Source of the DNA: a virus
Length of the DNA: 26,459 nucleotides
Direction: 5' to 3' (one strand)
Virus record (IMG/VR): IMGVR_UViG_3300004154_000361
Span: 1-26,459 of that record
In this document: one piece after another, positions 1,759 through 23,832 of the stretch
How positions within the stretch are numbered: position 1 is the stretch's first letter
Layout of the letters: the number at the start of each line of letters is the position of its first letter
Program-made: the position numbers and the translations under genes
The notes under the pieces: generated by a model
What the model saw: the letters and a program-made list of their open reading frames with translations, nothing else
The model's database searches: none
Told to the model about the DNA's origin: nothing

Positions 1759-2562
1759 TTATAAAAACTTTGGTTTAAATACAAACGATACAACACAGTT
1801 AAGGTTTGTGCCATCTACATAGACTGTATTGATTCCAGGCTGCAATTCAAGAAATGTATTTAAGTTTCCAGATACAACATTTAATTTGTTTATAGCCTGG
1901 TCTTTTTTGATTGTATAATTCTCACAATCTATTGTTATACTTGCATTTGTTAGTGTTTCGTTATAGTTTATAACCAACCCATTAATCCCAATTTTGAATG
2001 TCGAAAACGTACCAGCTATTTCAATCACAGGTCTTACCTCATATGTACCAAAGTTATTAATTTCGAATTGAGTTAATTGTGTAATTGTATATGTATATTC
2101 ATCACCAAGCCTAATGTCTGTATGGTCTAGCAATATACTTGAATCAAGTATTATATCATCAGCATTATAAATTAATTCAGCAATTGGTTGACAGTCAAAA
2201 ACTACAGTAAATTCAGCATCATTTACTATTTCCTTTGGCTTGATTTCTGAATATATACGTGCAATATATTCTTTGTCTGGTTCATCATCAAATATAAGCA
2301 TAGAAGCAGTTTTATTGCTTAGCCATTGTGCTATTCTTCTTGCTTTAACTCTTAGGTCTATTCTGCTTTCAGCAGGGTAATAGAATGTAACTGAAATTAA
2401 CCTTTTCTCATAGCTATTGCCTCCGAAGTCCCATACGCCATCTTTTCCATCAATCGTTATTTCTCTTTTTCTGAGGGATGGCAGCAATGTTCTATCATCT
2501 GATCTCATCCATAAACCTAGATCATTATAACTATGTTTGTTGTTGAAAGTTACTCCATTCAT
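1759..2562 (-). CDS. distal tail protein (Dit/SPP1 gp19.1-like)
   Basis: The 267-residue product has the usual Dit layout. The N-terminus (MNGVTFNNKHSYNDLGLWM), then LPSLRKREITIDGKDGVWDF and a strand-rich stretch with FDDEPDKEYIARI around residues 93-105, match the ring-forming domain of Siphoviridae Dit proteins. The C-terminal half (residues 140-267) looks like a second beta domain (galectin-like in known Dit proteins). Dit forms the hexameric hub joining the tail tube to the adsorption apparatus. The ATG overlaps the tape-measure stop by 4 nt (ATGA), the usual coupling of these two genes. The length is normal, and the call rests on sequence pattern plus position directly after the tape measure. 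Confidence 0.85.
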   Translation of the reverse strand: MNGVTFNNKHSYNDLGLWMRSDDRTLLPSLRKREITIDGKDGVWDFGGNSYEKRLISVTFYYPAESRIDLRVKARRIAQWLSNKTASMLIFDDEPDKEYIARIYSEIKPKEIVNDAEFTVVFDCQPIAELIYNADDIILDSSILLDHTDIRLGDEYTYTITQLTQFEINNFGTYEVRPVIEIAGTFSTFKIGINGLVINYNETLTNASITIDCENYTIKKDQAINKLNVVSGNLNTFLELQPGINTVYVDGTNLNCVVSFVFKPKFL

Positions 2563-4679
2563 GTTGTTGCCACCCCTCTTGGATTAAGATTAAATAATTC
2601 CTTGTCACTAAATTTTGCTATAGCTTTTGCAATTGTTTTTCCCTCAACAATTAATGGTACTTCAATTACAAAACCAGCTCCTGAGCCTGAGCCTAATCTA
2701 TTATTAGGATTATCAGGATTATATGCAGCTGGTGTAATTTTTTCACCTTTGTGTACCATAGCCAGCATATCATGTGTTATATAGTCTGTACCTTGATCAA
2801 ACTTAGGAATTTGAGGAATATTAATACCAAAATTCTTTCCTCCCATTCCTGGCACCCAATCAGGCACTTCTATTTTAAGTTTATTCAAACCTCTTATCAT
2901 GCCATTTACAAGGTCAATTATTATATTTACATTTGCTTTAACAAGTCCAGATATTGTTTCCCATACGCCACCAAATATTTGTTTAATTCCATTCCATACG
3001 GTTTTCCAATCTCCTGTGAAAGTACCTCTTACAAATGTAATTATTCCATTTAGTATTTTTAGCAGCCCTGAAACTATAGGTGTAATAGCATTCAGTGCGG
3101 TTGTTACAACATCTTTCACAACTGGGAAAACAGCTTGAAATACTTTTTGAAATGATTCTAACACTGGCTTTGCAGTAGTAACAAGGTTTTGAATTATCTT
3201 GCCTATTTCAGGCATCCAGACCTTGAAGTTTTCTGCTAACTTTGGAACTATGGTTTCATATAAGAATTTTAAGACCGCTAAAAATGGTGGTAGTACATTA
3301 GATACAATTAATCTGAACAAACTTATTAATGGTGGAAGTACATTTGTTGTAAATGCAGAAAATACACTTGATAATGCAGGAAATACATTTGAAACATATG
3401 ATTCAAAAATAGATTTCAAAGGCGGTAAAACATCTGTTGTGAATATTTCAAATCCTTGTTTCAAAACAGGCAAAACTAAATTTGAAACATTGTCTATTGC
3501 ACCACCAACATTACCCATAACTGTTGAAATAGTTGATTGAATTTCTGGCATGTGTGCATTAACCCAACTTGCCATTTCTGATAGTACTGGTAATATTTTA
3601 TCACCAATAGGTAATAACAAACCTGTTTCCAGTTGCCTTTTAATTCCTTCAACTGCTTCACCAAATGTATTATATTTAACTTGATTAATCTTCTCTAATG
3701 CATTGACTGTTGTGCTTATTGCTCCATTTGTATTTGTTAATGCTGCAATACCTTTTGCACCAAGGTCTTCCCACATGGTACCAAATAAAGCAACACCAAC
3801 TTGATTCTGTTGTAATGGGTCTTTCATTTCTAATAGCTTCTTAGTTACAGTCTCAAAAGCTTTTTTTCCTGATTCTCCACCAGCAGCAAAATCCTTTGAT
3901 ATTTTATTGGTATTTAGTCCAAGACTAGTGAATGCAGTACTTGTGCCATCAGAACCATCTTTTACCCTGATTCCAAATTCTTTGACCGCATCGCCAAGTT
4001 TATCAACAGACCAGGTTCCTCCTGCAGCTCCATTGGATAACATATTAAACATTTCTTCAGCATTGAATCCAAGTTGCTTGAATTGAATTGAATACTCATT
4101 AATTGTATCCAAAAGGTCATCATTTTTATTGAGACCTATCTGAGCTCCTTGGGCAATCAGATTATATGCTTGCTCTCCTGATACTCCAAATTGATTCATA
4201 ATCATATCTGCAGATCTAATACTTTCATTTACTTCGAATTCGAAAGTATCACGCATTGCAAGTGCATCTTTAGTTATATCTGTGAGAGCTTTCCCTGTAA
4301 GTCCTGTCTGTTGTGCAATTGTTGACATGGATTGTCCTATGTCTTCAAATGATTCACCAAAGTTGTTGTTGTATATATCCAACATAGAAGCTTTCATGTC
4401 TTTCATTGCTTCATCTGATTGCCCAGTTGCTGCTTGTAATCCATTCAAACTTTTTTGTAATTCTTCTGAAGCATTAAAAGCTTTTACACCAATAGCAGTA
4501 GCAACACCAACAGCTGCAACTCCAACAGCTGCTAATCCAATTCCAACTTTCCCAGCAAAACCTGAGAGTTTTGAAAATGTACCACCAGCTTTTCCAGCAC
4601 TATTGTCAATTTGTCCAATACGCTGATTAGCACCATCGTCTCTTATTATTATGTCTCCAAATAGCTCAAATAGTTGCAT
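2559..4679 (-). CDS. tail tape measure protein
   Basis: The 706-residue product has the composition of a tape measure: a hydrophobic Ala/Gly/Val stretch near residues 40-68, then long helical Gln/Asn/Ser-rich sequence (residues 70-390) with the TP901-type core (ALFGTMWEDLGAKGI). A run of six 15-residue repeats follows at about 402-491. Further hydrophobic segments and a Gly/Pro-rich tail (WVPGMGGKNFGINIPQIPKF) close it, as in Firmicute siphophages. At the usual 1.5 angstroms per helical residue it would set a tail near 100 nm. GAAGGTG precedes the ATG. It comes after the G/GT chaperone genes and overlaps Dit by 4 nt, the standard order. No lysozyme or peptidase domain is evident. Confidence 0.93.
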   Translation of the reverse strand: MQLFELFGDIIIRDDGANQRIGQIDNSAGKAGGTFSKLSGFAGKVGIGLAAVGVAAVGVATAIGVKAFNASEELQKSLNGLQAATGQSDEAMKDMKASMLDIYNNNFGESFEDIGQSMSTIAQQTGLTGKALTDITKDALAMRDTFEFEVNESIRSADMIMNQFGVSGEQAYNLIAQGAQIGLNKNDDLLDTINEYSIQFKQLGFNAEEMFNMLSNGAAGGTWSVDKLGDAVKEFGIRVKDGSDGTSTAFTSLGLNTNKISKDFAAGGESGKKAFETVTKKLLEMKDPLQQNQVGVALFGTMWEDLGAKGIAALTNTNGAISTTVNALEKINQVKYNTFGEAVEGIKRQLETGLLLPIGDKILPVLSEMASWVNAHMPEIQSTISTVMGNVGGAIDNVSNLVLPVLKQGFEIFTTDVLPPLKSIFESYVSNVFPALSSVFSAFTTNVLPPLISLFRLIVSNVLPPFLAVLKFLYETIVPKLAENFKVWMPEIGKIIQNLVTTAKPVLESFQKVFQAVFPVVKDVVTTALNAITPIVSGLLKILNGIITFVRGTFTGDWKTVWNGIKQIFGGVWETISGLVKANVNIIIDLVNGMIRGLNKLKIEVPDWVPGMGGKNFGINIPQIPKFDQGTDYITHDMLAMVHKGEKITPAAYNPDNPNNRLGSGSGAGFVIEVPLIVEGKTIAKAIAKFSDKELFNLNPRGVATT
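3207..3476 (-). repeat. six tandem 15-residue repeats inside the tape measure gene
   Basis: Residues 402-491 divide into six 15-residue units: VLPVLKQGFEIFTTD, VLPPLKSIFESYVSN, VFPALSSVFSAFTTN, VLPPLISLFRLIVSN, VLPPFLAVLKFLYET and IVPKLAENFKVWMPE. Units 1 and 3 end in TTD or TTN and units 2 and 4 in VSN, so the higher-order unit may be 30 residues. The DNA has diverged more than the protein, so the repeat is old and kept by selection on the protein. Confidence 0.85.
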
Positions 4680-5355: not shown

Positions 5356-6144
5356 CTATGCTATTTTCGGATATCTTATTTCATATGGCACTTTAGCGAT
5401 ATCTTCAGGATCATAATGTGCACTTATTTTGAGACCAGCAACAACCTCATCTTTGTCCTTTGTTGCCATCTCCAGTTTGTCATCATTAAGGGCATTATAA
5501 AGAACTATGACACAAGGTCTTTTGCTACCACTTACAGTTGTCACAAAAGCAATGTTGCTAAAATAATCGGTATCACTTATTTGCCCTGTGCTTATGATTT
5601 TGTCATATTGTGCAGTAATAGTTACAATGCTATCATCTGCAAAACCTCCTACTGGTGCAGCTGGTGAAAACTTAACTGTTATCTCTCCTGTAATAACTGA
5701 TGCATCTTCAGATACAGTATATGTACCAGTTGCTCCTGCTACAGAAAACACATCACCTTTCTTAAGTGTGCCAGCAAGGTTAGTTCCATCAAAAACAGCT
5801 GTTGTTGCACCTGCAGCAATAGCACCTTTTACAGTTACTCCTGTATCAGCTACTAATGATATATAATCAGACTTTGTTGTACCAGGTAATGCAAGCATAA
5901 TATTCTCTGTTGACATTTCTTTCAGATTTATTTCTAATGATGCATTTTCAGATAATAAGCGTTTAAGCCCTTTAATTTTTCCTTTAGCTCCATCAACTTC
6001 TATATCTCGATATTCTCTATCGAGCAAAAATTTATTTCCTCCTGCTGTAGCTCCTAGGATTCTCTCAGTTGCCAATCCATAATTAACATATACTACTCCA
6101 GCATCTAGCAACATATTTTTGATTGTTTTAGAATTTCCATACAT
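5356..6144 (-). CDS. major tail tube protein with an inserted beta module
   Basis: The 262-residue product opens with MYGNSKTIKN, LDAGVVYVNYG, ERILGATAGG and REYRDIEVDGAKG, a pattern seen in tail tube proteins of clostridial phages. Residues 1-100 and 175-262 are the tube-like parts. Residues 105-171 are a separate module almost the same as one in the coat protein (about 48 of 67 residues identical by eye). The gene precedes the G/GT chaperones, the normal place for a tube subunit. The ATG at 6144 has no clear ribosome binding site, and the sequence just upstream is unrelated filler at a deletion scar, so translation of this copy may be poor. The protein itself looks essentially complete. Confidence 0.75.
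   Translation of the reverse strand: MYGNSKTIKNMLLDAGVVYVNYGLATERILGATAGGNKFLLDREYRDIEVDGAKGKIKGLKRLLSENASLEINLKEMSTENIMLALPGTTKSDYISLVADTGVTVKGAIAAGATTAVFDGTNLAGTLKKGDVFSVAGATGTYTVSEDASVITGEITVKFSPAAPVGGFADDSIVTITAQYDKIISTGQISDTDYFSNIAFVTTVSGSKRPCVIVLYNALNDDKLEMATKDKDEVVAGLKISAHYDPEDIAKVPYEIRYPKIA
5632..5832 (-). repeat. shared beta module, copy in tail tube gene
   Basis: This stretch codes for residues 105-171 of the tube protein. It matches 9768-9968 in the coat gene both as protein (AAGATTAVFDGTN, AGTLKKGD and GEITVKF are identical) and recognisably as DNA. Confidence 0.85.
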
Positions 6145-6220
6145 CTTTATATCGGATCAACAGAATGAGCGTTCCTGATCCTGACGAAAAGATTAAGCAT
6201 AGGCAATTAAGATATAAATG
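6145..6220. other. filler DNA of unknown origin at a deletion scar
   Basis: These 76 bases separate a broken tail-completion gene from the tube gene. They hold no ribosome binding site for the tube gene and continue neither neighbour. A short imperfect inverted repeat (CTTTATATC at 6145-6153, GATATAAATG at 6211-6220) bounds them. A plus-strand frame from 6165 exists but has no ribosome binding site. Confidence 0.45.
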
Positions 6221-6364
6221 TCAAACATGGTTCGTAAATAATGGAGGGAAAGGAAATGATGGTGGCAAATTAGTTTCTGGGTCTAATTCAGGCACACTTT
6301 CTTGATATACATCAACACCAACAGATGATAATGTATCATAGATATACTTTAAAAATTCAATCAT
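6221..6364 (-). pseudogene. truncated tail completion/terminator-like gene (N-terminal fragment)
   Basis: An ATG at 6364 behind AAGGAGGAAATGCCAGA opens a 47-residue frame starting MIEFLKYIYDTLSSVGVDVY and continuing to PPSFPF. That is how tail completion or terminator-type proteins of about 110-140 residues begin in Firmicute siphophages. After about residue 38 the sequence departs (PPLFTNHV) and stops at 6221. Its start overlaps the stop of the gp10-like remnant by ATGA, which is the original gene coupling. I read it as the 5' third of a gene whose remainder was deleted. The family name is by position and pattern only. Confidence 0.6.
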
Positions 6365-6435
6365 TCTGGCATTTCCTCCTTGATAATCCTTTTGATTGTA
6401 TCTATATTATCTTCAGCTGCTGGAGTGCAATCATA
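6361..6435 (-). pseudogene. 3' remnant of an HK97 gp10-like head-tail gene
   Basis: A 24-residue open frame ends in IDTIKRIIKEEMPE and a TGA that overlaps the next ATG. It has no start of its own and runs out of phase beneath the end of the connector gene. The sequence looks like the helical C-terminus of an HK97 gp10-type protein, which normally lies between the connector and the tail terminator. The rest of that gene is missing, so this is the downstream edge of a deletion. The family assignment is tentative because so little remains. Confidence 0.5.
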
Positions 6436-6698
6436 TCAGCACTACTGTTGTTATAGGTAACAGAATAATCATCAATTGATTCAGCCTTTACATTATCTTT
6501 TGGTTTCTGCAGCCTGTAATTAATCATATTTGCAATGTATAATTTCAAAGCTGAAGGATAACCATCATCAAAGCTATTATTTAGGTAGGTGAGAAGATCA
6601 TTCTGGACAATCGGAATTAATGTTTCAATCAGCTGATCCTTGCTTTGGTCTGTGATTTGTAGAAGGGTTTTAACTTCAGCAAGATTTACTATATTCAT
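6402..6698 (-). CDS. head-tail connector protein (HK97 gp6-like), probably C-terminally truncated
   Basis: This 98-residue helical protein begins NIVNLAEVKTLLQI and contains LIPIVQNDLLTYLNN, LKLYIANMINYRLQKP and IDDYSVTYNNSS, the pattern of gp6-type DNA-packaging connectors that form a ring under the portal. GAAGGTGATGAA precedes the ATG. Family members usually run some residues beyond the DYSVTY motif. Here the sequence changes to MIALQQLKII and stops, and in another frame that same DNA encodes the tail of a gp10-like protein. The last 10 or so residues are therefore probably not native but were created by a deletion joint near 6435. Confidence 0.72.
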   Translation of the reverse strand: MNIVNLAEVKTLLQITDQSKDQLIETLIPIVQNDLLTYLNNSFDDGYPSALKLYIANMINYRLQKPKDNVKAESIDDYSVTYNNSSADMIALQQLKII

Positions 6699-6712
6699 TT
6701 CATCACCTTCAA

Positions 6713-7021
6713 TTATATTACATGTTTTTTATGTGATATTCTAACTGCTTCTTTATCAAGTTCAGCATAAATTTGAGTTGTAGCCGAACTTTCATGTCCT
6801 AAATATTCTTGAACTTCCATTAAGGAAGCTCCACTATTGAGCATATTAGTTGCTGTGGTATGCCTCATCAAATGTGGAAAAACATTACTAGTAATTCCTG
6901 CTCTTAAACCCAAAGAATGAAATATCTTTTCTATAGAACGTTTTCCCAATCTATTAAATGGTTTCTTTCCACTTACAAATAAAGCTTTTGCCTCATCTAT
7001 TCTTGTATAAGACTTTAATAA
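6713..7021 (-). pseudogene. tyrosine recombinase (integrase) C-terminal fragment
   Basis: The frame is open from 7021, after a stop at 7022-7024, to 6713. It encodes about 102 residues of a XerC/D-type catalytic domain: TRIDEAKALFVSGKKPFNRL, then HLMRHTTAT (the H-x-x-R box), YLGHESSATTQIYAELD (second His and the nucleophilic Tyr). The N-terminal DNA-binding domain and the first catalytic Arg are absent, so it cannot be active as it stands. A TTG at 6949 would start 78 residues but has no good ribosome binding site. An ATG at 7037 behind GAAGGTG is in another frame and stops after 14 codons, which suggests a frameshifted small gene. It is in the phage's direction, between head genes. Confidence 0.8.
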
Positions 7022-7079
7022 TTAACATATCTTTCATAAAACACCTTCAATATTTTAAATTAATATTCCTTATGCGAAC

Positions 7080-9158
7080 TTAAATTGTTAATCTTAGATT
7101 TGTACTATTTATTACGATTGGTGTAATATCAGCATCATCTACACGTCCAACAACAATTCTAAGGTATTTGGTATTAGCTGGAGTTGTTATTGTTCCTGTT
7201 GTTGTTCTCCATACTGCATCACCTGTAGTAAGAACAAAAGAAGAATTATAAAATCTTAATGTTACCTTATAATTTACAAAATCCATATTATAGATGTATG
7301 TCGCATCAGATGTCAGGGGTATAAATATGCTTCTTATTCTATTTGTTGCAGCTTCTTCTGCTCCACCTGTTGATAATCTCCCTTGTTTCCAATCGGATTG
7401 TAGTAGTGATATCACATTAACTGCATTAGCTGTCGAAGTAATTACAAATGTTAATGTGTTTGATGTTAAGCTACCATCTGTAACAACAATGCTTAATGTA
7501 TGTTTTCCAGCGGTTAGAGTTCCAACACTCCAAGTATTGCTACCTTTTAATATCGTTGCACTAGTTGATACACCGTCTATTGTATAAGTAGCAGTAAGAT
7601 TACCATATCCACTATATCCAGCATTATAAGCAATACTAATAGATTCCGTTGTTTTTACAATAGTTTTCTCATATAAAGTGGTTAAGTTTAGTGTTAAATC
7701 TTTGCTTTCCACAACTTTCAGTGCTAGATTACCCATTTTATTATTTAGGGTATTTCTAAACACTTTGTTATAGTTGGGCAAATCAAAACCACATATAATC
7801 CTATCATCTACAGATTGATGCCAATTTGTTGCTTCACACCTAAAACCTATATTTCCTGCTGTGGTAGGGTTTATTGTGCTTATAGTATGTATGGAGTTTG
7901 TATCAAAACTCCAAAAGTATACTTTCATAGGAGTTAATGATGGTAAATCATATCTATCCAAAAACAAAATGCCGTTAGGTCTTTCTAAATAACAACTCAC
8001 ATACGTAGCCTGTAATTCAGCTACATTAGGAAATTTATATAGCGTTTTTATATTTACAAAGTCATAAGCCGATGAGTCATTTCGACCCACTTCAAACAGG
8101 TAATGTAAATCTGTTTTACCACTATCTGTTGCCCAATATGCTTTCTTTTCTGTAAATGCAAAATTTAAAAGTCTGCAATAGGTTTCAGAAGGTCCGAGTA
8201 CTGTACTCCAAGTGACAGCATTGTCAACAGATTCATATATTGTTGCTGCTGTTGAATCGTCTCCAGTTGTAGCATATATTCTTGAAGTCCAAGGGTCTCT
8301 TTGTACATGGTGACAATGTTTGAATCCTACATCATTACTACCAGACAAGGTAAATTCTTTTACTTTCACCCAATTTGACACTGTTGTAAATGGTTTTGAT
8401 ACTTTCCATATATAACATTTTTCATGGCATGGGCGAGTGTATTCTGCAAATACAAAATAATCACCACAGTCGCATATGCCAGCATTTTGTAACCAAGATG
8501 TAGGCTTTATATTTGTAGTAAAGTCAATTGCTACAGGATTGGCATAATCTCCAGCAGGATATATAATTGGGTTCTGCCTTGCGTTAGCATTAACAGGTAA
8601 AGTTTCGCTTACCATATAACCCTTGAATACTGCCACTATATCACCAGCATCTGTTACATGTAAAGAGTAATCAGACGGAGGTCTGTTGCCTTCATACGTA
8701 AGAGTTTCATCCCAGTCTGCTATTTTGACCACATTATCAGGTGTTCCAGAAGCATATAATAATTCGTAATCTGAATTGTAGTATAGCCATCCTATTGGGG
8801 TAGGCTGAACATTTAAAGCTGAACTCATTTTAACCGCACATAATGTGGGATATTTTTCCGAGCTAGATGTAATTGTTAATACTGTTTTATCTGGTATACC
8901 TGAAAACTCTAACTTGTAACTTTTAGTTTGTGCCAAGTTCGCATTATCAGCCTGAATGGACTCAAAATTAGATGCATTCTGTTTTGACATCTGATATGCC
9001 TTTTCGCCTAAATCCTCTTTTCTAACATTCTTTACACTAGTACCTTTTTCTTGTGCAATCAACTGAATATCATAATTCTTGTATGAGCAATTTTCAACAT
9101 GAGCAGTATAACTTGCACCAGAGTTATATTCATTATTACAATATGGGCATTTTGCCAT
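7080..9158 (-). CDS. large zinc-finger-tagged beta-propeller protein (probable capsid fibre/decoration)
   Basis: The 692-residue product starts MAKCPYCNNEY, a C4-X2-C7-X12-H20-X3-C24 zinc finger like that of the upstream gene. A short helical linker (residues 30-75) follows, then about 400 residues of propeller-like strands. These include an Asp-box-like SVDNAVTW at 310-317 and a His/Cys patch (FKHCHHVQRDPW) near 279. An Ig-like domain lies near 485-580 and a jelly-roll-like C-terminus at 585-692. The ATG follows AGGTGATTAAGT. It lies among head genes behind the coat gene, not with the tail fibres, so a virion-surface glycan-binding or glycan-cleaving head fibre is inferred. No sialidase catalytic set could be assigned. 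Confidence 0.65.
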   Translation of the reverse strand: MAKCPYCNNEYNSGASYTAHVENCSYKNYDIQLIAQEKGTSVKNVRKEDLGEKAYQMSKQNASNFESIQADNANLAQTKSYKLEFSGIPDKTVLTITSSSEKYPTLCAVKMSSALNVQPTPIGWLYYNSDYELLYASGTPDNVVKIADWDETLTYEGNRPPSDYSLHVTDAGDIVAVFKGYMVSETLPVNANARQNPIIYPAGDYANPVAIDFTTNIKPTSWLQNAGICDCGDYFVFAEYTRPCHEKCYIWKVSKPFTTVSNWVKVKEFTLSGSNDVGFKHCHHVQRDPWTSRIYATTGDDSTAATIYESVDNAVTWSTVLGPSETYCRLLNFAFTEKKAYWATDSGKTDLHYLFEVGRNDSSAYDFVNIKTLYKFPNVAELQATYVSCYLERPNGILFLDRYDLPSLTPMKVYFWSFDTNSIHTISTINPTTAGNIGFRCEATNWHQSVDDRIICGFDLPNYNKVFRNTLNNKMGNLALKVVESKDLTLNLTTLYEKTIVKTTESISIAYNAGYSGYGNLTATYTIDGVSTSATILKGSNTWSVGTLTAGKHTLSIVVTDGSLTSNTLTFVITSTANAVNVISLLQSDWKQGRLSTGGAEEAATNRIRSIFIPLTSDATYIYNMDFVNYKVTLRFYNSSFVLTTGDAVWRTTTGTITTPANTKYLRIVVGRVDDADITPIVINSTNLRLTI

Positions 9159-9160
9159 AC

Positions 9161-9448
9161 TTAATCACCTGTTTCTTTTTGTTCATGGTTATCTTCATCT
9201 GGATCAGGAATAGCTTCAGATAACTTTGATATAATCTCAGCTTTTATCAAACCATCAACATTGATGTTTTTCTCTTTTGCAATCTTCTTTAATTCATCAA
9301 CCTTAAGGTTCTTTAAATCAACATTATCATCTGATTTTTTCATTTCTTCTTCAGGAAGAGGATTATCTTTAAATCCACAATTACTAATGTGTGCCTGAAA
9401 TGATTCACTTGAAAAATATTCATTGTGACAATATGGACATTTAGACAT
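9161..9448 (-). CDS. small zinc-finger plus SAP/Rho-N-like head protein
   Basis: A start at 9457 would sit directly on the ribosome binding site, whereas the ATG at 9448 lies 9 nt beyond AAAGG and gives MSKCPYC, parallel to the next gene's MAKCPYC. The 95 residues carry a C-X2-C-X12-H-X3-C finger (residues 4-24), an acidic linker, and LKNLKVDELKKIAKEKNINV near 45-64. That last stretch resembles the Rho N-terminal/SAP-HeH helical motif common in phage proteins encoded beside the coat gene. The acidic tail (PDPDEDNHEQKETGD) is probably disordered. It ends 2 nt before the propeller gene. A capsid-associated role is inferred from position; there is no known function. Confidence 0.7.
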   Translation of the reverse strand: MSKCPYCHNEYFSSESFQAHISNCGFKDNPLPEEEMKKSDDNVDLKNLKVDELKKIAKEKNINVDGLIKAEIISKLSEAIPDPDEDNHEQKETGD

Positions 9449-9467
9449 ATAATTCATCCTTTCTTAT

Positions 9468-9498
9468 AGGGAATTGACCTGTAAAAGTACAATTCCCT
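9468..9498 (-). promoter_or_regulatory. stem-loop after the coat gene
   Basis: AGGGAATTG and CAATTCCCT form a perfect 9-bp stem around a 13-nt loop, 14 nt after the coat stop. On the minus strand no U-run follows, so it is more likely an mRNA stabiliser or partial terminator that sets coat stoichiometry than a full stop. Read on the plus strand it is followed by TTTGTTTTT. Confidence 0.55.
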
Positions 9499-9512
9499 TT
9501 GTTTTTCAGCCA

Positions 9513-10649
9513 TTAACCTATGAGCCTTGCTGCCAAATCACGATCTAATGTTTTAACACCACATATCATATCTATGGATATGAGGTCTTTCTTATATGTG
9601 CTGTTGTAGTCGTATATAACTCTAAGTCCAAATCCATTAAAGTTTACAATTGCTTTTTGCTCTGAACTCAATCCCATTGGTAATGCCAAAGGTCTGGTTA
9701 CAAGTGCAAATGCATTTCTGTGGAATGCCATGTTAGCCATATGGCTTCCTACAACTGTAATAACTTTATTGTCAGGGAAACCTCCTGTTGGTACAGCAGG
9801 ATAGAATTTAACTGTTATTTCACCAGCAGCAACCGTTGAATCTTCTGTTACAACATAACTTCCAACAACATCTGCAACAGTAAATATATCACCTTTTTTA
9901 AGTGTTCCAGCAATGTTAGTTCCATCAAATACAGCTGTAGTAGCTCCAGCAGCAGTTGCACCTTTTACAGCAATACCAGGAGCATCTGCTGCAAGAGTAC
10001 CCTTTGTATGTTTCTTAATGTTCTGGTCCATATAGAAGTCAAAACCAAATTTTCTTCCTAATGAACCTTCACGAAGAGCCGATCCGTCATCTCCTGTTTT
10101 TGCCGCCTCATGAAATGTTGATAGTTGTGAGAATTTATCATCTGCAGCTGAGTCAACAATACATCTTCTTAGAGCATATGGCACTTTGTTATCATTTAAT
10201 TTTTTTCTAACTCCTGTTATATCTGCAATTCCTGATGGAGTTGTTCCTGCAGTACCATAATAATGAGGTATGTCTATATATAGCCCAGTAAGATAATCAT
10301 CAATTTTCTGTGCAAAAGAGCTCATAGCAGGAATTAAGAATTGCTCTGAAAAGTTATCAATACTCAATGATAGATTTTCAGATGTTGCTTCAAATGAAAC
10401 ATCTAATAATTTATCCAGTGTCAACTGAACTTCGCCTTCAGTTGCATCTTGTATTTCAATACCATTAATTCTATTGAATTCTTTCGCTTCAAAGTTTGCT
10501 GGCTTTCTAATTTTTATAGATGTTCCAACACCTGATACAAATTCCTCAGCATAATCTCTGTGTACAAGATTTGCCATAACTGCATTATTACTTAATAGCA
10601 TCATAGCTTCATTAGCTATAATGCTTGGTGTTAAAAGAGTATTTGCCAT
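9513..10649 (-). CDS. major capsid protein (HK97 fold, P22-like inserted module)
   Basis: The 378-residue product starts MANTLLTPSIIANEAMMLL and contains FVSGVGTSIKIRKP, LDVSFEATSENLSLSIDNF and SSFAQKIDDYL, typical of the P22 gp5-like coat family. Residues 228-294 are a small beta module (VKGATAAGATTAVFDGTN, AGTLKKGDIFTV) of the kind found in P22-type coat proteins, where an inserted domain helps subunit folding. The C-terminus (NFNGFGLRVIYDYNSTYK) fits the capsid P-domain. The ATG follows ACGGAGGTAATATAAA. It lies directly behind the scaffold gene in normal order. No maturation protease is seen, so scaffold release is presumably not by a phage protease encoded here. Confidence 0.92.
   Translation of the reverse strand: MANTLLTPSIIANEAMMLLSNNAVMANLVHRDYAEEFVSGVGTSIKIRKPANFEAKEFNRINGIEIQDATEGEVQLTLDKLLDVSFEATSENLSLSIDNFSEQFLIPAMSSFAQKIDDYLTGLYIDIPHYYGTAGTTPSGIADITGVRKKLNDNKVPYALRRCIVDSAADDKFSQLSTFHEAAKTGDDGSALREGSLGRKFGFDFYMDQNIKKHTKGTLAADAPGIAVKGATAAGATTAVFDGTNIAGTLKKGDIFTVADVVGSYVVTEDSTVAAGEITVKFYPAVPTGGFPDNKVITVVGSHMANMAFHRNAFALVTRPLALPMGLSSEQKAIVNFNGFGLRVIYDYNSTYKKDLISIDMICGVKTLDRDLAARLIG
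9768..9968 (-). repeat. shared beta module, copy in coat gene
   Basis: This stretch codes for residues 228-294 of the coat protein and matches 5632-5832 in the tail tube gene. About 48 of 67 residues are identical by eye with no gaps, and the DNA can also be aligned. Confidence 0.85.
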
Positions 10650-10668: not shown

Positions 10669-11250
10669 TTATTTGCCTTTCCTTGCTTTTATGTATTCAT
10701 CAATTGATAGCTTCCCAAGATCACCTTTAGCATGATCTTCATTTCCCTTTTGTGGGTCTCTGCCACCCTCTTTGAATTTTCCTTCAACCGCTGCCTTCAA
10801 TGAATTCTCCCACACAGATTCAAGCTTTTTAAGGTTCTCATTAGTACTATTTTCATCTTCACCAAGAAAATAGTCTGCTAAATCAAGTGGGATATTCTTG
10901 GTTGTCAAGTGAGATATAGCTTTGTTTTTAAGCTCGGCTCTTACCCTTATTTTTTTCTCATTTTCAAACTCAGCAGCAAGCTTTTTTAATGCTTTTTGAT
11001 CTTCAGTTTCTGCTGGGTATCTCTTTGTGATTTCATCCTCAATAAGTTTTGGCATGTTTTCTTTTTGCCAAGATTCAAGCGACTTTTTGAAATGAACATC
11101 ATTGTGAGATGATAGTATTTTTTTACCTTCATCATGTGAATTCAAAAAATTCGTTACCCTATCAGGAGTAAAAAACCCACCAATAAGGCTTTTTACTTCA
11201 TCACTATCCTTATTGCTTTCTAAAAAGCTTTTAATTTCTTCGCTATTCAT
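10669..11250 (-). CDS. capsid scaffolding protein (minor structural gp20-like)
   Basis: This 193-residue protein is highly charged and nearly all helical, with no Cys. It has SWQKENMPKLIEDEITKRYPAE in the middle, then a coiled-coil Lys/Glu-rich stretch (QKALKKLAAEFENEKKIRVR), and a basic C-terminus ending DEYIKARKGK that probably binds coat. These are the features of gp20-type scaffolds of Firmicute siphophages. AGGAG stands 10 nt before the ATG. It is directly upstream of the coat gene (19 nt gap), as scaffolds nearly always are. It nucleates the procapsid and leaves before packaging. Confidence 0.85.
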   Translation of the reverse strand: MNSEEIKSFLESNKDSDEVKSLIGGFFTPDRVTNFLNSHDEGKKILSSHNDVHFKKSLESWQKENMPKLIEDEITKRYPAETEDQKALKKLAAEFENEKKIRVRAELKNKAISHLTTKNIPLDLADYFLGEDENSTNENLKKLESVWENSLKAAVEGKFKEGGRDPQKGNEDHAKGDLGKLSIDEYIKARKGK

Positions 11251-16365: not shown

Positions 16366-16863
16366 TTAAGCTTTGTTTAAAACATTAACTGCAAGTTCAA
16401 TTACTTTTTCATTGCCAGCAACAGTAAATTTTACTTTTGCCCTGAAGCGACGTCTGTCCACTTTTATTATGTTTCCTTCAAATCCCTGAAGTGGACCATT
16501 GATTACTTTTATGTCCTGACCCTCTTGAAAAATATCAGATATTCCAACAAGATCACCATCTCGTGTCAAACTAAATATTGTTTTCATTTCATCTTCACGA
16601 ATTGGTTCTGGACATCCCGATGCACCTTCAAGTATATTTATTACTCCTGGGATACTAGTCAATTCGTAATAATCAGTTGCTTGCATTTCTGTTTGAACGA
16701 AAACATATCCTGGCATTAGAACACGTTCAACTGTTTCCCATACTCCAAATTTTCTCTCGTTTAACAATCTTCTTGGTACAATTGCCTTATACATCTTCTC
16801 AGCAGATTTTTTTACATCCAACTCATTTCCAGTTAAAACATGTAGTACATACCAATTATCCAC
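16366..16863 (-). CDS. NusG-family processive antiterminator (LoaP/UpxY-like paralogue)
   Basis: The frame is open from 16893, but NusG proteins start a few residues before WYVLHV. The GTG at 16863, 5 nt behind GGTGG, gives 166 residues and an 8-nt overlap with the upstream gene. The NGN domain spans about 1-105, with DNWYVLHVLTGNE, RKFGVWETVERVLMPGYVFV and YYELTSIPGVINIL. A KOW domain follows at about 114-160 with INGPLQGFEGNIIKVDRR. These are hallmarks of NusG paralogues that ride RNA polymerase. Core nusG is never in phage packaging clusters, so this is a specialised paralogue. Placed before a hairpin and terminator at the head of the late operon, it is inferred to antiterminate that operon. 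Confidence 0.85.
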   Translation of the reverse strand: MDNWYVLHVLTGNELDVKKSAEKMYKAIVPRRLLNERKFGVWETVERVLMPGYVFVQTEMQATDYYELTSIPGVINILEGASGCPEPIREDEMKTIFSLTRDGDLVGISDIFQEGQDIKVINGPLQGFEGNIIKVDRRRFRAKVKFTVAGNEKVIELAVNVLNKA

Positions 16864-17434
16864 TTGAACCACCAGCCTTTGTTTTAACATCATCAGCTAT
16901 TCGACATATTTTATCGAATAATTCGGGTTCTTTCTCTCTCAGTTCTTTTCCAAGCTCCTGAATCCAAGCTTTCTTATAATCTTCAATTCCCTGCGTATAT
17001 TGCTTCTTATATTTTTCCTTGTAAACATTGCTTCGCTGGATCGCCACCATCAACTTAGCAGCCTTTTCAATTGGCATGTCCTGAATTTCCTCTTCAGCTA
17101 TTGCCATCTTCTGAACCAGTTGATCAACGAACATTGTTGTTGCCAGTTCAGTGGCTTCAATGTCTTTATTGTCCTTTACAGCTTCAAGGAGCATTTCCGT
17201 TTTTAACCGAGCATCTTTTAATCTTTTTATTGCTGTATTATTGCGTATTGCATATCTGCCTATTGCTGATTTGCTTAATGGATAACCTAATGCTGTAATT
17301 TCTATAGCAATTTCATCATATCGCATATAGTCATTTCCAGTTTTCATAAGCATTTCATCTAGCTTTTTTCGAGCATCTTCAGGGAGAGCATCAACTTTCG
17401 AACAAATTCTGGTTCTTTCACGTTCCTTACCCAT
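16856..17434 (-). CDS. Mu gp27-like protein (DUF3486 family), probable small terminase subunit
   Basis: The 192-residue product starts GKERERTRICSKVDALPEDARKKLDEML, then YDEIAIEITALGYPLSKSAIGRYAIR near 41-66, a helix-turn-helix of the type shared by DUF3486 (Mu gp27) proteins. The remainder is helical with a charged C-terminus (ELGKELREKEPELFDKI). In Mu this gene precedes the large terminase gp28, and the family is generally taken as the DNA-recognising small subunit. It overlaps the preceding gene by 1 nt and the NusG paralogue by 8 nt. That NusG paralogue separates it from the large terminase, which is unusual. Confidence 0.85.
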   Translation of the reverse strand: MGKERERTRICSKVDALPEDARKKLDEMLMKTGNDYMRYDEIAIEITALGYPLSKSAIGRYAIRNNTAIKRLKDARLKTEMLLEAVKDNKDIEATELATTMFVDQLVQKMAIAEEEIQDMPIEKAAKLMVAIQRSNVYKEKYKKQYTQGIEDYKKAWIQELGKELREKEPELFDKICRIADDVKTKAGGSSG

Positions 17435-20761: not shown

Positions 20762-21739
20762 CTAGTAAAGCATTTTATAATTCCTTGCATCCTTCACTAT
20801 GCCAATATCAATTTGACCACCTTCAGCAGCTTCTAAACTTAATTCAAGTAACTCAATCAAATTCCCAAGTCCACCATGCTTAACATCAATTGCAACAGCT
20901 GTTAATATGTCAGCTGCATCTTTTGTAATGTTGTACCATCCTAAGAACTCCCTAACCTCGGTTTCCTTTATTCCTTTTAGCCGAATTTCATATTTCCTTC
21001 TATAGAGCTGTGCAAGGTTTTCCTTGCCATTACCTCTTGTGAGTATAGATTCAAGCTCATATGTACCACATAGTATTATTGGTGTTCCAGTGTTATCCCA
21101 TATCTTTCTAAGTTCATCAAATTTGCTTACATCCCATTTTTTCAAATATTCTGCCTCATCTATTAAGAACATCACATCTTTTCCCTGAAGGGTATTAATA
21201 AGCTTTTGTCTCTTCTTGAAGATCGTTCCTCTTCCAAGTTCAATTCCGCAAGCTTCAGCCATAATATCAAACAAATCATTCAATCTCATACTTGCGACAG
21301 CTTCAATATATATTGCACCTGGAGTTCTTTTTGAATATTCCTTTAAGATTGTTGTCTTTCCTGATCCAGGGTGTCCAATCAAGACACCCATCTTTTTTCT
21401 TTTTCTCATATCTTCACAAAATGCCAATGTTTCTTTCAACTCTGAGGTGGGGAAGAGCTCAATGGATGTTTTATAGTCATTAATAGTAGAAACTAAATCA
21501 TTGCTCTCATTATCTATGACTTCATTCAAAAACTCTCTAATCTTGAATTCAACATCCTTGTTGGCTCTTTTGTGATTAGCCAATAATGATATTGATGACC
21601 TATTAATCTTTGTCTTTCTTTCAATCTCTGCAAATGTAATTCCATTATCCTTAAGCCTTATTAATTCTTGTGCCAATTGGTCTATACTCATACCCATTGC
21701 ATCTGTTACATTTGTTTCTAACTTCAATACTGCTTCCAT
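20762..21739 (-). CDS. transposition ATPase, MuB-like
   Basis: The 325-residue product has an N-terminal helix-turn-helix (ITFAEIERKTKINRSSISLL, residues 34-53), as in MuB. The AAA+ ATPase follows: Walker A GHPGSGKTT at 122-130, Walker B VMFLIDEAE at 189-197, sensor-like PIILCGTYELE near 220-230, and an arginine-rich LYRRKYEIRLKG near 242-253. A C-terminal helical domain ends it. MuB polymerises on target DNA, activates the transposase and confers target immunity. It starts 39 nt after the transposase stop in the same operon. Length and motifs are complete, so it should be functional. Confidence 0.93.
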   Translation of the reverse strand: MEAVLKLETNVTDAMGMSIDQLAQELIRLKDNGITFAEIERKTKINRSSISLLANHKRANKDVEFKIREFLNEVIDNESNDLVSTINDYKTSIELFPTSELKETLAFCEDMRKRKKMGVLIGHPGSGKTTILKEYSKRTPGAIYIEAVASMRLNDLFDIMAEACGIELGRGTIFKKRQKLINTLQGKDVMFLIDEAEYLKKWDVSKFDELRKIWDNTGTPIILCGTYELESILTRGNGKENLAQLYRRKYEIRLKGIKETEVREFLGWYNITKDAADILTAVAIDVKHGGLGNLIELLELSLEAAEGGQIDIGIVKDARNYKMLY

Positions 21740-21777
21740 AAATTCGACCTCCTATTTGCCATTTTATATGCGATTTT

Positions 21778-23832
21778 TTAACTACTAATAGCATCACGTT
21801 CAAATATCTCCTCACCGATCCGCTCAAACCTCTTTTTAATTTTTCCATCTCCTTTTACTTCTTTTGGTTCAAGAGCCTTCGTATATTCCTTCATTGCTTT
21901 TTCATGTTCAATTGATGTAATGTTACTTTCAGTTTCAATTGTTTCTCCAGTCATAACATTAGCTGAAGCAATTTTTCTGCGTTTTGGTTTTGCAATTCCT
22001 TTAAGTTCACAAATCCTATCAATGACATCGTTTTCCTGTCTTTTTTGTAACTGAATATTTTCAGCAACCAAATCTGCATCTTCATTTACCATCTTAAGTT
22101 TGTCTCTCACAGTTGCAGCACATACAAATCTGTCATTATGCATAATTATCAATACATCTTTTTGCTCTTTGTTATATTTAACCTTTACACGCTCATTAGC
22201 AAGGTGCATCAATTCTTTATGCCAATATATTTTGTTTTCAAATCTTATTCCTTGTGTTGTAACATCACGTTCAACACATTCCATCTTTATTACTGCCAAT
22301 AGGGCTTTACTAGGCATATCATATCTTGCCTTTTCAAGTTTCATATAACGTTCAATTGGCTTTTCATTGTTGTATCCTGAATGTGGTCTTTCATGATAAG
22401 CTGGAAGTATCTTGCTTGTAAGAACCACCTTGAATTCATCCAATGAAAGCAACTCACCTTTTTCAGCCATCCTTTTTACGTCCTTATCAAATCCTTCAGG
22501 TCTTTCATTTGGATTATTTCCACACCATCCTGGCAGCTCCCTAATATATCTTTCTTCAATTGTTTTGAACCATCGTTCTACAGGTTTTGCCCAACCATGG
22601 TAAGCTTTTGCATGTATGTTTTGAATATGAAGTTGCTTAAGTATTCCTTCAGTTTCAATGTTATATTCCATCTTTCCGTGGTCAACCTCAACAAACTGTC
22701 CACCTTCAAATACATGCGACCTATAATCTTTACCATTGTCTGTATATACAATTGATGGAACTCCACAGAATGGCACATCAGGTTTCTCAAGTATTCCATA
22801 AGTAAGAGCTTCTGCTATAGTTCTAGAATTAGGATTCATACTAAGACACCATCCGACCAGGCACCCTGATCCGATATCATACCAAGCAGTGATCCAAGGT
22901 TTAGCAATGTTGCCTTTGTCATCATATACAAAAACATCAAAAACGTGATGGTCACCAAACCAGCATTCATTTACTACATTAGGCTTCTCACGAATTGCTT
23001 TTTGCATATATGCTGCTTCCCAATACTTTCTTCCCTTTCTTGCAAAGTCCACTATTTCATTACTTACATCTTCTTTTAAAATCCTACTTAGTGTTTTAGA
23101 GCTGTTTGTAACAATCAATCCGTTATATTCCTCATAACAAACAGGAACATTTATACAGTCTTCTGGATTTAAGTTGAGCTCCATCTTTTTCCTTGCTTCA
23201 GTGCCCTCACGATACATACAATTTTTACAAGCCTCTGGACCTGAAATTTCAGCATAATCAAGCAGCATTTCATGAATAACTGTCTTTTTACGTTTTGCCT
23301 TAGTTAGATATTTATCCATCATGTATCGTTGGGCTTCAAGACAGATGCTTGTTCTTTTACCTTTATTGTTCCTTTCAAGCTTTTTCATAAGTCCTGCTGT
23401 ACCATTTTCAATAAAGGACTGCATCCATCTATCAAGAGACCTTTTACCAATATTATTTTCCTTTGCAAGCTCCTCACATAGCTTTGTTTTTTCCTTTGGA
23501 AACTTTGTGCCTATTTCAATAGCCTTTTGTACTATTTCATACTTAAAAACTAGTTCCTTAACTCCATCTTCTCCAAACTTTTCTTTGTATGCAGCCATAT
23601 CAATGTCAATTTCTTTGTGTTTTTTAGGATTTTGTGCTTCATTTATCTTTTGATAATATTTCAATTGTGCTTCAGGTGATAGGGAAGAAAGAAGGACTTC
23701 CGTTTTTGAACCTGTACTACTTTCAACGATTCTTGCTTTGTACTCACCTTTTTTAATATTTCTTCTTATTGTAGTTACATGTTCGCTGGATATCTCAGCA
23801 GCAGCCTTTACATCAATATATATATCCAACAA
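21778..23832 (-). CDS. Mu-type DDE transposase (MuA-like)
   Basis: Translation begins at TTG (23832 or 23829) behind AGGTGG; there is no nearby ATG. The 684-residue protein has N-terminal DNA-binding domains (IDVKAAAEISSEHVTTIRRN, then a helix-turn-helix near 112-140 with NNIGKRSLDRWM) and an RNase-H-like core. The likely catalytic residues are D294 (WFGDHHVFD), D365 (VYTDNGKDY) and E419 (AKPVERWF), which match the MuA D-D-E spacing (the last two 54 apart, 56 in MuA). A beta-barrel and helical C-terminus for MuB contact follow. Four Cys (202, 205, 226, 232) suggest a zinc site before the core. It integrates and replicates the phage by transposition. Confidence 0.95.
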   Translation of the reverse strand: MLDIYIDVKAAAEISSEHVTTIRRNIKKGEYKARIVESSTGSKTEVLLSSLSPEAQLKYYQKINEAQNPKKHKEIDIDMAAYKEKFGEDGVKELVFKYEIVQKAIEIGTKFPKEKTKLCEELAKENNIGKRSLDRWMQSFIENGTAGLMKKLERNNKGKRTSICLEAQRYMMDKYLTKAKRKKTVIHEMLLDYAEISGPEACKNCMYREGTEARKKMELNLNPEDCINVPVCYEEYNGLIVTNSSKTLSRILKEDVSNEIVDFARKGRKYWEAAYMQKAIREKPNVVNECWFGDHHVFDVFVYDDKGNIAKPWITAWYDIGSGCLVGWCLSMNPNSRTIAEALTYGILEKPDVPFCGVPSIVYTDNGKDYRSHVFEGGQFVEVDHGKMEYNIETEGILKQLHIQNIHAKAYHGWAKPVERWFKTIEERYIRELPGWCGNNPNERPEGFDKDVKRMAEKGELLSLDEFKVVLTSKILPAYHERPHSGYNNEKPIERYMKLEKARYDMPSKALLAVIKMECVERDVTTQGIRFENKIYWHKELMHLANERVKVKYNKEQKDVLIIMHNDRFVCAATVRDKLKMVNEDADLVAENIQLQKRQENDVIDRICELKGIAKPKRRKIASANVMTGETIETESNITSIEHEKAMKEYTKALEPKEVKGDGKIKKRFERIGEEIFERDAISS

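Follow-up and report, generated by a model that had tools for sequence, protein, structure and literature searches.

A putative coat insertion domain within the tail tube protein of a transposable siphophage

The viral sequence IMGVR_UViG_3300004154_000361 (IMG/VR), analysed here over its whole length of 26,459 nucleotides (the window), comes from a transposable siphophage, with Mu-type transposition genes, siphophage tail genes and a P22-type coat. We observed that the major coat protein and the major tail (tube) protein of this phage carry two versions of one module, which we identify below with the insertion domain (I-domain) of P22-type coats. We consider it likely that the coding segment of the coat I-domain (∼75–85 codons) was copied in frame into the tube gene in a Mu-like siphophage lineage, that the point of insertion was the loop between a helix of the tube protein and the following core strand, a loop able to accept a surface domain, and that the inserted copy diverged afterwards under purifying selection, presumably in a bracing or decorating role.

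Both genes are located on the minus strand (coordinates of the features are collected in Table 1). Minus-strand translations of the module cores begin with VKGATAAGATTAVFDGTNIAGTLKKGD in the coat (residues 228–294, positions 9768–9968) and with VKGAIAAGATTAVFDGTNLAGTLKKGD in the tube protein (residues 105–171, positions 5632–5832). The two cores align without gaps with 48 of 67 residues identical (72%), and their DNA is 75.6% identical. The first-pass annotation, made from the window's letters without database searches, had arrived by eye at about 48 of 67 ungapped positions in otherwise unrelated proteins; the count turned out to be exact, and beyond the module the identity along the same diagonal drops to background. 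True borders of the match are wider. In BLASTP, coat residues 218–303 aligned with tube residues 96–180 (53 identities in 86 positions, E-value 2e-33), and blastn of the window against itself produced a single ungapped match of 224 bp (9767–9990 versus 5631–5854, 74.1%, E-value 4e-39), the strongest repeat within the window. Similarity of this degree is far beyond chance. A search of the window's remaining tail proteins, the distal tail protein (Dit) included, left the coat and tube proteins as the only carriers of the module.

The coat protein is of the P22 type with the HK97 fold. The match to PF11651 is full-length (coat residues 1–378 versus family positions 1–423, E-value 2.3e-73), and the coat model, with a mean predicted local distance difference test score (pLDDT) of 84, superimposes on the P22 procapsid protein gp5 (8i1v_A) with Z 28.3 at 3.6 Å over 342 residues; the structural match spans coat residues 3–378 and gp5 residues 2–426. 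The I-domain of P22 corresponds to gp5 residues 222–345 (PMC9965877). The coat module occupies this very position, which supports the identification of the shared stretch as the I-domain of a P22-type coat. Most coat relatives carry the module; in the coats of loci L014 and L015 and of Streptomyces phage Galactica it is closed over cleanly, as by a deletion, with the core kept. In a tree of coat columns taken outside the module these three coats formed one group, with the window coat as its weakly supported sister (83/85). Because this core tree shows one change of the trait, the I-domain is ancestral in the sampled coat family and was lost once, in the L014/L015/Galactica group; further coats with no module match came up in a later scan and are outside the tree, and some of these are long enough for a divergent I-domain missed by the profile. 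The earlier suggestion of a P22-type coat with an inserted module, in which the coat copy is the original one, thus agrees with the family match, the position of the domain and the core tree.

The tube protein has a different make-up. Matches to phrog_885 (major tail protein) cover its sequence on both sides of the module; these flanks are 54% identical to the tube protein of locus L044, which is without an insert, and the tube model (pLDDT 80.8, predicted template modelling score pTM 0.65) matches siphophage tube structures over the core with Z from 10.6 to 12.4. The order of genes is head-tail adaptor, tube, two small open reading frames (ORFs) where the tail chaperones are expected, tape measure and Dit. 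The copy is inserted between the helix at tube residues 79–85 and the following core strand, and it takes up residues ∼93–181 of the model. Residues 93–178 superimpose on the oligonucleotide/oligosaccharide-binding (OB) domain of T5 Dit (Z 10.5, 2.1 Å, 82 residues) and residues 95–178 on P22 gp5 222–344 (Z 8.1, 2.0 Å, 74 residues, 28% identity); the corresponding domain of Sf6 is matched as well. By these comparisons of models the tube copy is predicted to have the I-domain β-barrel fold. Pfam families of immunoglobulin-like (Ig-like) domains had no match at E ≤ 1 to either the module or the whole tube protein. Annotation of the tube protein as a Dit of phrog_1302 was considered and rejected: only the module matches that family, the rest belongs to phrog_885, and a separate Dit gene is present.

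We saw no module at this site in the tube relatives sampled. It is absent in 30 of 30 other IMG/VR tube relatives, with alignments closing cleanly over it, and 39 phage records match the tube protein on either side of the module and never across it, none of them covering 80% of the query. The closest tube relative, from a Thermoflavimicrobium prophage (54%), is without the module; so are the tube relatives in 398 genomes from the phylum to which this nearest isolate host belongs, and the only match of the module profile there was to a 368-aa ORF of coat size. No modular tube was found among 75 coat loci with flanks. The first-pass annotation had supposed that the tube copy was acquired and had proposed a comparison of related tubes with and without the module. 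In this comparison only the tube of the present phage carries it, and the relatives from IMG/VR and the phage records bear the supposition out; the opposite possibility, a module long native to both families, fails on the side of the tube, whose sampled relatives do without it. In locus L050 the tube relative (6809–7654) has an insert close to the N-terminus, and this is another domain; thus, insertion in this family of tube proteins is not confined to a single loop.

In a densely sampled tree of modules, the tube copy was sister to the coat copy of its own genome (99/90), with the coat module of locus L111 next to the pair (84/92). The tube copy therefore nests inside the coat modules, and a topology with the tube copy outside the coats was rejected (approximately unbiased test, p-AU 0.021). 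Identity of the tube copy is 64% with its own coat copy over 76 columns and 53% with the module of L111, the nearest known coat, whose core is 71% identical to that of the window coat. As L111 lies outside the pair, sequence comparison supports a transfer that would have gone from coat to tube within this lineage, after its split from L111; the event is dated only as later than the split from this nearest known coat. A synonymous clock calibrated on the L111 coat was tried and proved useless, with dS (synonymous divergence) saturated between a contig of 59% GC and the 33% GC sequence studied here.

The transfer probably took place within a single genome. Recombination between genomes, in which the coat of another phage, a close relative, would have supplied the tube with its I-domain, is in our estimate rather unlikely. 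Genomes of phages are mosaic, and the nearest relatives of this tube protein occur in phages whose coat is unrelated (L044), thus the present coat and tube were joined by recombination at some time; the tube copy, however, is closer to the coat copy beside it than to the module of any other coat locus sampled, as the well-supported sister pairing indicates.

High identity of the two copies inside one phage had been read in the first-pass annotation as a sign of recent duplication or continuing gene conversion, with synonymous divergence named as a check. This check gave dS of 0.68 (reaching 1.1 over the final third of the module) and non-synonymous divergence (dN) of 0.19, with 61% of third positions identical between the copies. 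The resulting dN/dS ratio is ∼0.28; therefore, protein-level selection appears to keep the copies similar. Core nucleotide identity is 0.756, as against 0.707 ± 0.020 expected with the proteins fixed, and no identical run exceeds 15 bp, where the expected mean of the longest run is 13.3. Two observations could speak for conversion: identical codons were found at 31 of the 48 identical residues, slightly above the 24.4 expected if codons were independent (P 0.036), and similarity is much higher over the first 32 residues (28/32) than over the remainder (20/35). Still, the fraction of identical codons among identical residues shows no difference between the well conserved (19/28) and less conserved (12/20) halves, so that the N-terminal likeness looks like constraint and not like a conversion tract. 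With codons near random, third positions and dS this divergent and identical tracts no longer than expected, we find it very improbable that recent duplication or continuing conversion keeps the copies alike. As far as sequence tells, the event is old rather than recent, and the inserted copy has been subject to selection.

A few considerations weigh against the reading of an old, selected insertion with a role on the tube. First, the modular tube is known from one virus population: the window and IMGVR 3300027719_000267 are 99.99% identical. Secondly, the quality of the tube model (pLDDT 80.8, pTM 0.65) is moderate, and it is therefore uncertain how the module is oriented relative to the tube. 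Thirdly, the literature describes the inserts in the tube proteins of phages YSD1 and JBD30 as Ig-like and not as resembling I-domains; the parallel with them, discussed below, is thus one of position and not of homology. Fourthly, the element looks decayed, and the tube gene as it now stands may be defective; misassembly of the connector region is a less likely cause of the rearrangement seen there.

An inverted fragment of a tail-terminator gene, its C-terminal part, extends into codons 1–4 of the tube gene, and residues 3–28 of the L044 terminator match positions 6364–6287 on the minus strand, where the beginning of the broken gene is located. The neck gene similar to HK97 gp10 is mostly missing, being reduced to a few residues. 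A native N-terminal arm is required for the tube to work, though not for assignment to phrog_885; most tube relatives have several more N-terminal residues, and the first codons of the window tube overlap the inverted fragment. Between head and tail genes we also observed a C-terminal fragment of a tyrosine integrase (6713–6949; PF00589, E-value 1.9e-18). The inverted fragment at the start of the tube gene, the loss of most of the HK97-gp10-like gene and the integrase fragment among structural genes would suit a dead remnant, or an assembly artefact, in a decayed prophage where the shared module never had a role. We regard this as improbable, though: neither ORF is interrupted within the module, the dN/dS ratio means that selection acted after the duplication, and two contigs agree on the region (possibly, however, from shared reads).

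What the tube copy may do is suggested by its place. In the tube protein of JBD30 a central sandwich is followed by a helix (residues 77–83) and then by a decoration domain (residues 88–175) (PMC11445458); in YSD1, domain 2 of the tube protein is inserted between α1 and β4 and braces the neighbouring subunit (PMC8718954, PMC7385642). The helix of the window tube protein and the module after it fall at the same place as these extra domains. Kinship in sequence was not found: the insert of the JBD25 tube protein compared with the module profile yielded an hhalign probability of 6%. Most simply read, this lineage filled the loop after the helix with the I-domain of its own coat, which would add contacts around the ring or decorate its surface. 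By position, the tube copy is expected on the outside of the tube ring, where it could serve mainly as a brace or surface decoration between neighbouring subunits, in the manner of YSD1 domain 2, and the coat copy would do the usual work of an I-domain, stabilising the coat subunit and the contacts of capsomers. Parallels with the P22 I-domain and with YSD1 domain 2 point first to a structural role, and for the tube copy we infer a bracing function.

The first-pass annotation had suggested that head and tail may share one decoration or receptor function. One may ask whether the module is instead a ligand- or receptor-binding domain shown on head and tail, e.g. for binding of host glycans. T5 Dit has the same fold, the Dit of JBD30 is described as carrying oligosaccharide-binding domains (PMC11445458), and carbohydrate binding has been proposed for the Ig-like domains of tails (PMC8718954). 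The I-domain of P22, however, participates in folding and in subunit contacts, as seen from temperature-sensitive substitutions and salt bridges (PMC9965877), and glycan binding was not found in the literature consulted; a binding role thus seems unlikely to us. To a bolder version we give little credence: the barrel of I-domains and T5-type Dit would be a general building block moved between head shell, tube and tip, and here its copies on head and tail would attach to a single shared partner, either a decoration protein or a sugar of the host surface. If true, head and tail of this phage would be decorated by one shared module.

Table 1. Positions of the features discussed in the text
Feature	Position	Strand	Evidence
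Distal tail protein (Dit), without module	1759–2562	−	phrog_33, 1.1e-39; PF05709, PF22768
Tape measure protein, 706 aa, downstream of tube as in siphophages	2559–4679	−	phrog_1272, 9.8e-97
Major tail (tube) protein with putative inserted I-domain, 262 aa	5356–6144	−	phrog_885, 1.6e-50, two stretches
Putative I-domain copy in tube	5631–5854 (first-pass core 5632–5832)	−	self-blastn, structure matches
Inverted tail-terminator fragment	6132–6230	+	tblastn of L044 terminator residues 89–121, 52%, E 1e-8
Head-tail adaptor	6402–6698	−	phrog_1161, 4.3e-16
Major coat protein, P22-type HK97 fold, 378 aa	9513–10649	−	PF11651, 2.3e-73; phrog_283, 3.7e-87
Coat I-domain (insertion domain)	9767–9990 (first-pass core 9768–9968)	−	self-blastn; position as in P22
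Scaffolding protein	10669–11250	−	phrog_172, 2.4e-25

Elsewhere in the window, the regions 16366–17434 and 20762–23832 encode a Mu-type transposase (Mu-transpos_C), a MuB-like AAA protein, Mu gp27 and a NusG homologue. A second intragenomic repeat (9065–9177 versus 9355–9465, 63.7% over 113 bp) corresponds to a finger-like stretch, CPYC...H..NC, at the starts of a 692-aa protein and of a 98-aa SAP-domain protein. The former (7080–9158), encoded between the coat and connector genes, had no Pfam or PHROG match.

Among known systems, one close likeness is with the gp5 I-domain of P22, Sf6 and CUS-3 (PF11651), which has the same fold and the same place in the coat; the module profile matched the I-domain structures 6mpo (E-value 0.0038) and 6mnt (0.062). 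Long-form I-domains, e.g. that of Sf6, have a loop of ∼13–18 residues, and both window copies are without it; short-form I-domains are common in related PF11651 coats, so the long loop does not define the family. The difference is that in the window one copy is located in a tail tube protein.

The module also resembles T5 pb9 and its family phrog_1302: the profile matched 12 of 13 members (best E-value 1.6e-12), and the single copies matched the family at 2.1e-5 (tube) and 1.9e-7 (coat). In that family the domain belongs to a Dit, located at the tip of the tail and not in the tube, and the sequence is far from the coat copy. The same barrel module is carried by gp43 of Pelagibacter phage HTVC112P (L041, 2725–3324), a Dit-like protein annotated as hypothetical; its hhalign probability was 98.9%, with the module of gp43 itself being one row of the profile used. 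Plain tblastn and a phrog match link gp43 to the module too; when the modules by themselves were compared with phage records by tblastn, all matches had E-values of 0.06–0.09, and of these gp43 was confirmed by the profile. Thus, the module is already known in the coat and in the tail tip (T5-type Dit); its presence in a tube protein, found here only in this phage, is the new part. This suggests one exchangeable superfamily, made up of the I-domains of capsids and the Dit domain of the T5 type.

With domain 2 of chi and YSD1 and the decoration domain of JBD30 the likeness lies in an insertion after the tube helix, with the domain outside the tube (PMC7385642, PMC8718954, PMC11445458). This suggests that surface domains in general can dock at the loop following the helix.

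Optional domains shared among virion proteins are known, but cases with an identifiable donor and recipient are rare. Ig-like domains of tailed phages are said to have been described by Fraser et al. in 2006 as promiscuous, being optional on several virion proteins and exchanged between phages. Our case is similar in that an optional domain occurs on several kinds of virion protein; it differs in the fold family and in that donor, recipient and direction can be named within one genome, which holds both copies. It would thus be an unusually clear, directed case of a building block moving from head to tail.

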